Assembly (NCBI GenBank): GCA_021817605.1
Contig: JAKAUN010000006.1
Coordinates: 62,001 to 126,000, forward strand
From: Thermoplasmata archaeon
GTDB taxonomy: Archaea > Thermoplasmatota > Thermoplasmata > Lutacidiplasmatales > UBA184
Direction of reading: 5' to 3'
DNA length: 64,000 bases
This document shows, one piece after another, positions 13,171-63,814 of the stretch. Positions within the stretch are counted from its first letter, which is position 1, and each line of letters opens with the position of its first letter. A program made the position numbers and the translations under genes. The notes under the pieces were generated by a model. The model saw nothing but the letters and a program-made list of their open reading frames with translations, did not search any database and was not told where the DNA came from.

Positions 13171-13845
13171 GTGGAACTTCCCGAGAGCCTGTGGACGCGC
13201 CAATTCACGGTCGACAGGCCGGAGGTCGTGCTCGAGGTTGAGGACCGTCTCGAGCTCGGCGGCGGGGTGACGATGCTCGAGGTCCGCGTGAGCGCCTTCG
13301 AAGGGGGCGGGTGGAGCGAGGAGGTCCGCTCCCTGCCGGGCGTCGAGGACGTGGAGCTGTTGGACGCGGTCGAGGGTTCGGAGACCTTTCGCGTCTTCTT
13401 CCGGGGCCGGACGTTCCTCCCGCTCATGCGACGTCTCGGGCTCGTGCGGCACTTCCCGTTCCCCATCCAGAACGGCGTCGCGACTTGGACGCTCACCGGG
13501 CCCGAGCCCAAGGTGAGGGCGCTGCTTCTGTCCCTCGAGAAGGCGACCGACGGGGTGCGCGTGGTGGCCGTTCGTCACGGCCCGTTCGCGCCGGGCACCT
13601 CGCTCCTGACCCCGCGCCAGCAGGAGGTCCTGCGACGCGCCATGGCGGAGGGGTACTTCGACGTGCCCCGACGGGTCTCGCTCACCGGGCTCGCGGCCAT
13701 GCTGGGCATTGCGATCTCGACGCTCTCCGTCACTCTGGCCGTGATCGAGAAGAAGATCCTCGAGCCGCATGCTGCTGACGCCCTCGGGGGGTTCCGGGGT
13801 GAGAGCCGGTCGACGCCGAGTCGCCCGTTCTCCCGGCGTGGATGA
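13171..13845 (+). CDS. HTH-10 (bacterio-opsin activator-like) transcription regulator
   Basis: A 224-residue protein. Residues 1-150 form an alpha/beta sensor-like region seen in small archaeal Bat relatives (two related beta-alpha segments around LELGGGVTMLEV and VRVVAVRHGPF). The C-terminal 60 residues carry the HTH_10 signature LTPRQQEVLRRAMAEGYFD, then RRVSLTGLAAMLGI and STLSVTLAVIEKKIL as recognition region. The GTG at 13171 is chosen since the family starts at this strand; the in-frame extension to 12961 reads as non-protein low-complexity sequence. A regulator of unknown targets. It faces the divergent DUF488 gene. Confidence 0.82.
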   Translation: MELPESLWTRQFTVDRPEVVLEVEDRLELGGGVTMLEVRVSAFEGGGWSEEVRSLPGVEDVELLDAVEGSETFRVFFRGRTFLPLMRRLGLVRHFPFPIQNGVATWTLTGPEPKVRALLLSLEKATDGVRVVAVRHGPFAPGTSLLTPRQQEVLRRAMAEGYFDVPRRVSLTGLAAMLGIAISTLSVTLAVIEKKILEPHAADALGGFRGESRSTPSRPFSRRG

Positions 13846-16910: not shown

Positions 16911-17019
16911 CGCCCGTGCTGGGATTCGAACCCAGGTCTGAGGCTCCGCAGGCCTCTAGGATAATCCACTGTAGCGGCCCGAGGGTGGATCCTCGGGACC
17001 GTAGCTACCCCACACGGGC
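16911..17019 (-). tRNA. tRNA-Arg(GCG) with a 36-base insertion in the D-loop
   Basis: Minus strand. Acceptor stem GCCCGTG (17019-17013) pairs with CACGGGC ending at 16912, discriminator G at 16911, no encoded CCA. Anticodon arm is GAGGC-CTGCGGA-GCCTC, anticodon GCG. The T-arm is CTGGG-TTCGAAT-CCCAG. Between the D-stem 5' half GGGT plus AG and the rest of the loop TGGATT-ATCC lies an extra segment (about 16969-17004). Without it the tRNA is 73 bases and normal. The insert folds by itself (CCCGAGG with CCTCGGG), and the flanking GTAGC can pair with GCTAC at its end, leaving 3-base bulges, which resembles a bulge-helix-bulge splice motif. Exact ends are uncertain by a few bases because of short repeats. 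Confidence 0.88.
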
Positions 17020-17064: not shown

Positions 17065-17072
17065 TCATAAAG
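17065..17072 (-). promoter_or_regulatory. TATA-like box for tRNA-Arg
   Basis: CTTTATGA on the minus strand about 47 bases before the first base of the tRNA; the only AT-rich octamer in the upstream region on that strand. Confidence 0.4.
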
Positions 17073-17103: not shown

Positions 17104-17141
17104 CGGGCGGCGTGTCGGAGGCGCGGGCCCGAGCGAGGGAC

Positions 17142-18458
17142 GTGAGCACGTCGGAGGACGCATGGAAGGTGCTCCGTTCGCTCCCGATGGGGGAGCGGAT
17201 AGAGGTTACCGATACCAACGGGTGCCGATGGACCGGGACCGTGATCCCGCCGCACGAGCTCTCGGGGGATCGTGTCCTTTCGTTGAAACTCGCAAGCGGC
17301 TACAATGTCGGGATCCGGATTGGCTCGCAGGTCGAGTACCGTCGCCTCGCCCCGTCGCCGACCCGTAGGGTCGAAGCTCAGGAAGGATTGCCCCCCTCGG
17401 CGACAACGGTTCCCGACGACGGTCGCACCGTCGACCTGCTCACGACCGGCGGGACGATCGCCTCGCGGGTCGATTACGAGACCGGCGGCGTCCGCCCCGT
17501 GAGCGACGAGAAGGAAATCCTCGAGTTCTATCCGGAGCTCAAGGAATCGGGGGGGGTCCGTGTCGTACCGGTCCTCGACCGGCTCAGCGAAAACATCGCT
17601 CCGTCCGACTGGCTCCTCCTCGCCGACAAGGTCGTCGCGTCCTTCGCGCGGGGCGCCTCGGGCGTAGTGATCGCCCACGGGACCGACACGCTCGGCTTTA
17701 CCGCGGCCGGTCTCAGCTTCCTTCTCGCCGACCTTCCCGGCCCGGTCGTCCTGGTCGGAGCCCAGCGCTCCCCGGATCGTCCTTCCTCCGACGGGCCCTC
17801 GAACATCGCCGCGGCGGTCGCGGTCGCCCGCGACCGACGGCTCGGCGAGGTCGTCGTCGTCATGCACGAGACCGTCTCCGACGGCCGGTTCTCGGTCCAC
17901 CGGGGTTGCTGGGTGCGCAAGATGCACGCGAGCCGCCGCGATGCCTTCGAGAGCCTCAACGGTCCGCCCCTCGGCACCGTCGAGGGGACGAGCGTCCACC
18001 TCCTCCCCGACGTGCGCCCCCCGGCGCGCGGGCCGCCGCGCGTCGACGGTCCGATCGACGAGCGTGCCGGCCTTCTCTGGTTCTACCCAGGGCTCTCCCC
18101 TCAGAAAGCCGCGCAGTTCGTCGACGGCCTTCGGGGGGTCGTCCTCGCGGGCACGGGGCTTGGGCACGTGAGCTCGGTGCACACGGACTGGATCCGGGCT
18201 GCCACCAAGCAGGGGGTGGTCGTGGCCATGACGACCCAGTGCCTGAGCGGAACGGTCGACCCGTACGTCTACGCCACCGGCCGCGACCTCCTCCGGTCCG
18301 GTGTCCTCTACCTGGACGACCTGCTGCCGGAGACGGCGTACGCGAAGATGGCCTGGGCGCTCGGACGCGCGCGCGCGCCCGAAGAGGTAAGGCGCCTCCT
18401 CTCCGAGGACCGCGCGGGCGAGTTCCACCACCGGCGGCGCCCGGAGGCCACCGCGTGA
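17142..18458 (+). CDS. gatD: Glutamyl-tRNA(Gln) amidotransferase subunit D (asparaginase-like)
   Basis: With GatE it converts Glu-tRNA(Gln) to Gln-tRNA(Gln); GatD releases ammonia from an amide donor. The N-terminal 80 residues are the small beta-barrel seen in GatD (GERIEVTDTNG, WTGTVIPPHE). The L-asparaginase domain follows with LLTTGGTIAS (first catalytic Thr), VIAHGTDTLGF (second Thr and Asp) and the Lys in WVRKMHA. C-terminal domain ends near VYLDDLLPETAYAKM. GTG 17142 is preferred over the in-frame GTG 17112 from the position of the TATA box. The stop overlaps the GatE start by 3-4 bases. This pathway is universal in archaea, which lack direct GlnRS. Confidence 0.95.
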   Translation: MSTSEDAWKVLRSLPMGERIEVTDTNGCRWTGTVIPPHELSGDRVLSLKLASGYNVGIRIGSQVEYRRLAPSPTRRVEAQEGLPPSATTVPDDGRTVDLLTTGGTIASRVDYETGGVRPVSDEKEILEFYPELKESGGVRVVPVLDRLSENIAPSDWLLLADKVVASFARGASGVVIAHGTDTLGFTAAGLSFLLADLPGPVVLVGAQRSPDRPSSDGPSNIAAAVAVARDRRLGEVVVVMHETVSDGRFSVHRGCWVRKMHASRRDAFESLNGPPLGTVEGTSVHLLPDVRPPARGPPRVDGPIDERAGLLWFYPGLSPQKAAQFVDGLRGVVLAGTGLGHVSSVHTDWIRAATKQGVVVAMTTQCLSGTVDPYVYATGRDLLRSGVLYLDDLLPETAYAKMAWALGRARAPEEVRRLLSEDRAGEFHHRRRPEATA

Positions 18459-40538: not shown

Positions 40539-40646
40539 TGGGGCTGCCCGAATTTGAATCGGGGTCCCGGGCTCCCAAAGCCCGAAGGATGGACCAGTAG
40601 AGCGGACGGAGGGGCTCCCTCGCGCCCGTAGCTACCCCACAGCCCC
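40539..40646 (-). tRNA. tRNA-Pro(TGG) with a 35-base insertion in the D-loop
   Basis: Minus strand. Acceptor GGGGCTG (40646-40640) pairs with CAGCCCC ending 40540, discriminator A at 40539. Anticodon arm CGGGC-TTTGGGA-GCCCG, anticodon TGG. T-arm CCCGA-TTCAAAT-TCGGG. The D-stem half GGGT plus AG is followed by an extra segment (about 40597-40631) before TGGTCC-ATCC, the same site as in tRNA-Arg. Without it the tRNA is 73 bases. The insert also begins CTACGG and ends CTAC, as in tRNA-Arg. It starts 10 bases after the UPF0179 stop on the same strand, so it may be processed from that transcript. Confidence 0.88.
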
Positions 40647-63709: not shown

Positions 63710-63814
63710 CGCCCTGGTCGGGAGTTCCGGCACGGAGGGGGGACCCTCCGTCGCCTTCGAACCCGAGTCCCAGGCTCGACAGACCTAGATCCTAGACCAC
63801 TAGACTACCAGGGC
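63710..63814 (-). tRNA. tRNA-Asp(GTC) with a 32-base insertion in the T-loop
   Basis: Minus strand. Acceptor GCCCTGG (63814-63808) pairs with CCAGGGC at 63717-63711, discriminator G at 63710. The D-arm is GTCT-AGTGGTCT-AGGA, the anticodon loop CTGTCGA with GTC. The T-stem starts TCGGG-TTCGAA, but the matching T-CCCGA follows only after an extra segment (63724-63755). The segment is a hairpin with ACGGAGGG and CCCTCCGT, 8 base pairs. Without it the tRNA is a normal 73-base tRNA-Asp. No CCA is encoded. A GGTTCATAG element about 30 bases upstream may be the promoter. Confidence 0.87.

Follow-up and report, generated by a model that had tools for sequence, protein, structure and literature searches.

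A D-loop intron in the tRNA-Arg(GCG) gene of a Thermoplasmata archaeon and its predicted removal by a loop-less homodimeric endonuclease

The window analyzed here is a DNA stretch of 64,000 nucleotides within contig 12 of the 1.75 Mb genome of a soil archaeon, which comprises 16 contigs and is rated 100% complete. The named genomes closest to it are MAGs of Thermoplasmata, SubAcS13-64 and AcS1-36 among them, which were both placed in Ca. Lutacidiplasmatales by Sheridan et al. (PMC9287336). Based on these shared relatives, the window genome presumably belongs to the same order (Thermoplasmatota). The minus strand harbors a tRNA-Arg(GCG) gene (17019..16911) whose cloverleaf is complete once a segment of the D-loop is left out. 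This interruption, proposed in the initial annotation, is borne out by the sequence and by 27 other genomes of the genus. The following features were assigned to the locus:

17003..17019, minus strand: 5' exon of tRNA-Arg(GCG), GCCCGTGTGGGGTAGCT, tRNA positions 1-17 (sequence reading; near-invariant in 28 genomes)
16969..17002, minus strand: D-loop intron of 34 nt, ACGGTCCCGAGGATCCACCCTCGGGCCGCTACAG (intron-less orthologues, invariant exons and covarying inner stem)
16911..16968, minus strand: 3' exon with anticodon GCG and discriminator G73 (sequence and homologue comparison)
17005..17008, minus strand: exon strand of the predicted 4-bp central splice helix, G12 U13 A14 G15, which pairs with intron CUAC
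16971..16974, minus strand: intron strand CUAC of the predicted central splice helix (CTR(C/T) in nearly all homologues)
17067..17071, minus strand: TATA-like element TTTAT, about 48 nt upstream of the gene (comparison of relatives)

In most relatives, TTTTATA is located at the position matching the TATA-like element. The neighbors are gatD (17112-18458) and gatE (18455 onward), which we take to encode the archaeal Glu-tRNA(Gln) amidotransferase.

The intron boundaries were set by comparison with 61 related genomes. The interrupted gene was found whole in 27 of the 36 sampled congeners and split over two contig ends in one further congener; in the remaining eight, which are 56-90% complete, tRNA-Arg(GCG) was absent among the matches listed. 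Congeneric introns are 31-35 nt long and change freely in sequence, whereas the exons are near-invariant. In the set of genes found by BLAST, which was gathered without any splice pattern, variation is confined between ...GGGGTAGCT and TGGAT..., barring two exceptions: a compensated change in the acceptor stem (L140, GCCCGC/GCGGGC) and one T missing in two genomes. Intron-less orthologues of other families read GGGGTAGCTTGGACATCCTAGA or GGGGTAGCTTGGATATCCTAGA, which is the same join as the predicted spliced junction of GGGGTAGCT with TGGATTATCC. The empty site GGGGTAGYTTGGA...ATCCTAGA occurs in orthologues of families f2, f5, f16, f18, f21 and f25, where ...GGGGTAGCT is followed directly by TGGA.... 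The invariant exons together with the intron-less orthologues thus place an intron of 34 nt at 17002..16969, between U17 (17003) and U17a (16968), and give a product of 75 nt including G73. These values replace the 36 bases and the 73-base product of the initial annotation. Removal of the intron restores a standard tRNA with an ordinary D-loop, AGCUUGGAUUA, identical to that of the intron-less orthologues. The insertion between positions 17 and 17a differs from the canonical intron position 37/38.

The gene is not called by ARAGORN in standard mode, its RF00005 score lies slightly under the gathering cut-off, and at the gathering threshold Rfam returned no tRNA in the window. The first two of these results favor a dead or decaying copy. 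However, the exons hardly differ within the genus, changes to the acceptor stem are compensated as described above, the TATA element is kept, and no other gene with a GCG anticodon was found, which makes decay scarcely conceivable. A second, uninterrupted tRNA-Arg(GCG) gene, which had been named as a sign of a dead copy, was found neither in the window genome nor in 30 sampled genomes of its family. As this is the only tRNA found with a GCG anticodon and CGC is the commonest Arg codon in the three neighboring ORFs (55 of 140 Arg codons in gatD, gatE and the next ORF), the tRNA-Arg(GCG), which serves CGC and CGU, is probably essential. The only call of ARAGORN in the window, a tRNA-Gly at 13305-13398 on the plus strand, lies inside a longer ORF and is absent from the RF00005 search of the genome; it is probably a false positive.

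The suggestion that the lineage carries non-canonical tRNA introns is confirmed by further genes of the genome, two of which are located in the window:

40539..40646, minus strand: tRNA-Pro(GGG), interrupted at the same D-loop site by an intron of 33 nt (40629..40597), as it also is in 14 congeneric genomes
63710..63814, minus strand: tRNA-Asp(GTC) at the right end of the window, interrupted in the T-loop at 59/60 by an intron of 32 nt; its T-stem and acceptor pair in full only once the intron is removed

Eleven tRNA genes of the genome (Ser-GCT, Gln-CTG, Ala-GGC, Ser-GGA, Gly-TCC, Ser-CGA, Arg-TCG, Asp-GTC, Asn-GTT, Arg-TCT and Glu-CTC) contain T-loop introns of 26-34 nt at 59/60, and in each of them the 5-bp T-stem and the 7-bp acceptor stem are complete only after intron removal. 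Of 37 genomes of the genus, 29 match a strict T-loop pattern; the 24 other genomes searched gave no match. The 3' end of these introns often reads CGGAAC before TCC, and CGGA can pair with U54-U55-C56-G57. Altogether, at least 13 of the approximately 41 tRNA genes of the genome carry non-canonical introns, and at least four carry anticodon-loop introns. The D-loop introns of tRNA-Arg and tRNA-Pro in the family share the frame ACGG...CCGCT, and the genes have the exon GTGGGGTAGCT in common. This suggests that an intron may have been transferred, or a sequence converted, between the two genes. In the genus of the window the tRNA-Pro(GGG) intron ends with CTCTAC (or CTCTAT) before TGG, which provides only three of the four central pairs; in other genera it ends with CTACAA before TGG.

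To assess the distribution of the D-loop intron, 400 genomes of the class Thermoplasmata were searched with the pattern GGTAGYT-N(14-44)-CTRCANTGG. It is present throughout the family of the window, in seven of seven sampled genera. Convincing matches in other families are restricted to a few genomes, namely G038, G049 and G143 for tRNA-Arg(GCG), G065 for tRNA-Arg(TCG), and G145, G130 and G089 for tRNA-Pro. The introns of G038 (21 nt) and G049 (31 nt) occupy the same site and have unrelated inner stems within the same GTAG/CTAC frame. The tRNA-Arg(GCG) of G143 has an irregular T-arm region. The other matches, in AT-richer genomes, look like chance, as a reversed-pattern control gave similar numbers there. 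That tRNA-Arg and tRNA-Pro are interrupted at one and the same D-loop site in several Thermoplasmata families points to intron transfer between tRNA genes or repeated gain at the favored sequence GGUAGYU/UGG as a possible origin. In two genomes of another family of the same order (G037 and G039; L196 and L197), tRNA-Arg(GCG) lacks the D-loop intron and contains one at 37/38, which indicates that the intron position switches between neighboring families. The tRNA-Arg(TCG) of G065 (L244, family f17) apparently has two introns, one in the D-loop and one at 37/38 in the anticodon loop.

The precursor of tRNA-Arg(GCG) folds with a z-score of -4.1 relative to shuffled sequences. The inner hairpin of the intron, initially described as 7 bp, is present and longer than that: CGG[U]CCCGAGG/CCUCGGGCCG. 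Counted over 77 distinct introns of the class, pairs form in 92% of cells at the first five inner positions, compared with 70 +/- 1.5% when 5' and 3' intron halves were exchanged between genomes (maximum of 5000 shuffles, 77%). An alignment of 19 sequences contains 13 pairs with changes on both sides, a count that includes pairs outside the intron. At their 3' end, homologous introns have CTAC, CTGC, CTAT or, in a single case, CTAA, and then an A plus any base. For the pairing of this element the BLAST-found set was used, since in introns found by pattern the central-helix counts follow from the search pattern itself; these counts were excluded as evidence. The predicted splice motif combines the 4-bp helix GUAG/CURC with a 3-nt 5' bulge and a 3' internal loop. 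Based on this geometry, both cuts would fall two nucleotides past the helix (5' side, CU^A or CU^U; 3' side, AN^U). Pairing of GTAGC with GCTAC had been proposed for the flanks of the segment; four of these pairs stand (G12-U13-A14-G15 with CUAC), and the remaining C is part of the 5' bulge C-U^A. Likewise, the site is of the bulge-helix-bulge (BHB) type as suggested, but the outer helix of a strict hBHBh' motif is absent, as G10-G11 face G18-G19 and no outer pairs adjoin the 3' site. Due to this lack of an outer helix the motif falls into the relaxed HBh' or bulge-helix-loop (BHL) class.

The motif rests on the comparison of homologues and is not returned by unconstrained folding or RNAalifold. 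The minimum-energy fold of the naked precursor is devoid of the central helix, which costs about 2.2 kcal/mol on average when enforced. RNAalifold favors an alternative D-arm pairing; this says little, because the exon pairs concerned hardly vary. The insert folds by itself into a hairpin at the D-loop tip and, in the minimum-energy fold, stacks on the D-arm. It could also be retained, so that the mature tRNA would be used unspliced with an extended D-arm resembling an expansion segment. We consider this very improbable. CTR(C/T), complementary to G12-G15, is kept while the rest of the insert drifts, although a retained hairpin would have no need of it; the empty-site orthologues match the exact predicted splice product; and the T-loop inserts of the same genome would break the T-arm if they were retained.

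The genome was also analyzed for its processing enzymes. Searches with PF01974 (E up to 0.1) and PF02778 (E up to 10) identified a single EndA-like gene, one ORF with the unit order N-C-N-C that contains two PF02778 and two PF01974 units. The catalytic Tyr, His and Lys motifs (KYGAHFRAY, SAHARYLV and VRKEF) are located in the C-terminal half only, a feature shared with A. fulgidus and T. acidophilum EndA, both of which are (alpha')2 enzymes. EndA is thus predicted to be of the two-unit, homodimeric (alpha')2 type. No insertion precedes the LSLIE strand of the catalytic unit in the aligned EndAs of the family (YGSRVG-HRLELSLIE), the position at which A. pernix EndA has its Crenarchaea-specific loop (CSL), and no insertion corresponding to the ASL (ARMAN-specific loop) was found, as judged solely at the position it shares with the CSL. 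A gene for RtcB is present.

From these data we infer that the gene is a single functional tRNA-Arg(GCG) gene which is transcribed and spliced, and it is very probable that the 34-nt intron is cut by the (alpha')2 EndA and the exons are joined by RtcB. In the proposed precursor the intron lies between D-loop positions 17 and 17a, and CUAC at its 3' end would pair with exon G12-U13-A14-G15 to form a 4-bp helix adjoining the intron's own hairpin. With this helix formed, the 5' site would lie in a 3-nt bulge, C-U^A, and the 3' site in a loop, A-G^U. EndA, as a homodimer, would cut both strands two nucleotides past the helix, and RtcB would then join the exons to the 75-nt tRNA. According to reviews, (alpha')2 enzymes are restricted to canonical BHB motifs and non-canonical introns accompany loop-bearing enzymes (PMC6379350, PMC4033280, PMC4090602). 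The restriction stated in the first two of these would favor a true intron that is excised by a different activity than the (alpha')2 EndA, such as another nuclease or a divergent EndA beta subunit that escaped detection. Such an activity is improbable, as both Pfam domains retrieve only one EndA-like gene from a genome rated 100% complete, and one group reported that homodimeric enzymes also cut BHL motifs, the geometry predicted here (PMC8707768). For cleavage by the (alpha')2 EndA, the present genomes would favor the view of that group or a newly broadened EndA.

D- and T-loop introns are already known in archaea. Those of Thermoproteales and other Thermoproteota are similar to the ones described here, being short hairpin introns of the D- and T-loops with a 4-bp exon-intron helix and a relaxed BHB motif in many interrupted tRNA genes per genome. 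However, they occur with an (alpha beta)2 EndA that contains the Crenarchaea-specific loop, whereas the present host belongs to Thermoplasmatota and its predicted (alpha')2 enzyme lacks the loop. Korarchaeum cryptofilum also combines a homodimeric EndA with non-canonical introns; as of 2014, no other archaeon with an alpha2 endonuclease was known to harbor them (PMC4033280). Its EndA reportedly resembles the (alpha beta)2 enzymes in having their specific loop, an insertion not seen in Lutacidiplasmatales EndA. The epsilon2 EndA of ARMAN-1 and -2 is likewise a single-gene homodimer of archaea from acidic environments that have non-canonical introns, but Lutacidiplasmatales EndA is without the loop insertion and has a C-terminal catalytic unit as in alpha'. 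For Atabeyarchaeia and Freyarchaeia (Asgard), too, soil MAGs show numerous tRNA introns outside the canonical position, but these archaea belong to another phylum and carry introns in 92-95% of their tRNA genes (PMC11291895). No report of D- or T-loop introns in Lutacidiplasmatales was found in the searchable papers.

In the standard account, alpha4 and (alpha')2 enzymes are narrow and go with introns at 37/38, whereas loop-bearing (alpha beta)2 or epsilon2 enzymes go with introns elsewhere. Lutacidiplasmatales appear to combine an enzyme of the narrow class with introns of the loop-bearing class. The presence of many non-canonical introns alongside a predicted loop-less (alpha')2 EndA thus departs from the published rule. 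The order may have independently evolved a tolerant loop-less (alpha')2 EndA for relaxed D- and T-loop motifs, which would have allowed non-canonical introns in about one third of the tRNA genes, with reuse of the D-loop site by transfer or repeated gain; we see the chances of this scenario as evenly balanced. If it is true, it breaks the rule that ties non-canonical introns to (alpha beta)2, epsilon2 or loop-bearing enzymes. The order offers a natural test of the model of EndA-intron co-evolution and of the dispute in the literature over homodimeric cutting of BHL motifs. Dense species sampling, in which interrupted sites occur next to empty ones, makes it suitable for studying gain and loss of tRNA introns. 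In practical terms, tRNA genes with D- or T-loop introns are missed by ARAGORN in standard mode.

Two stretches of EndA were compared among relatives. LPRGG..NK.P..FW in the N-terminal half was considered as a cause of tolerance and rejected, as intron-less relatives also have it. Behind the catalytic Tyr region, the loop sequence of family f1 (e.g. L206) is YPRNPE, versus YEGDP or YEDDP in several intron-poor relatives. This charge change near the active site might bear on the substrate range, although other enzymes vary there too.
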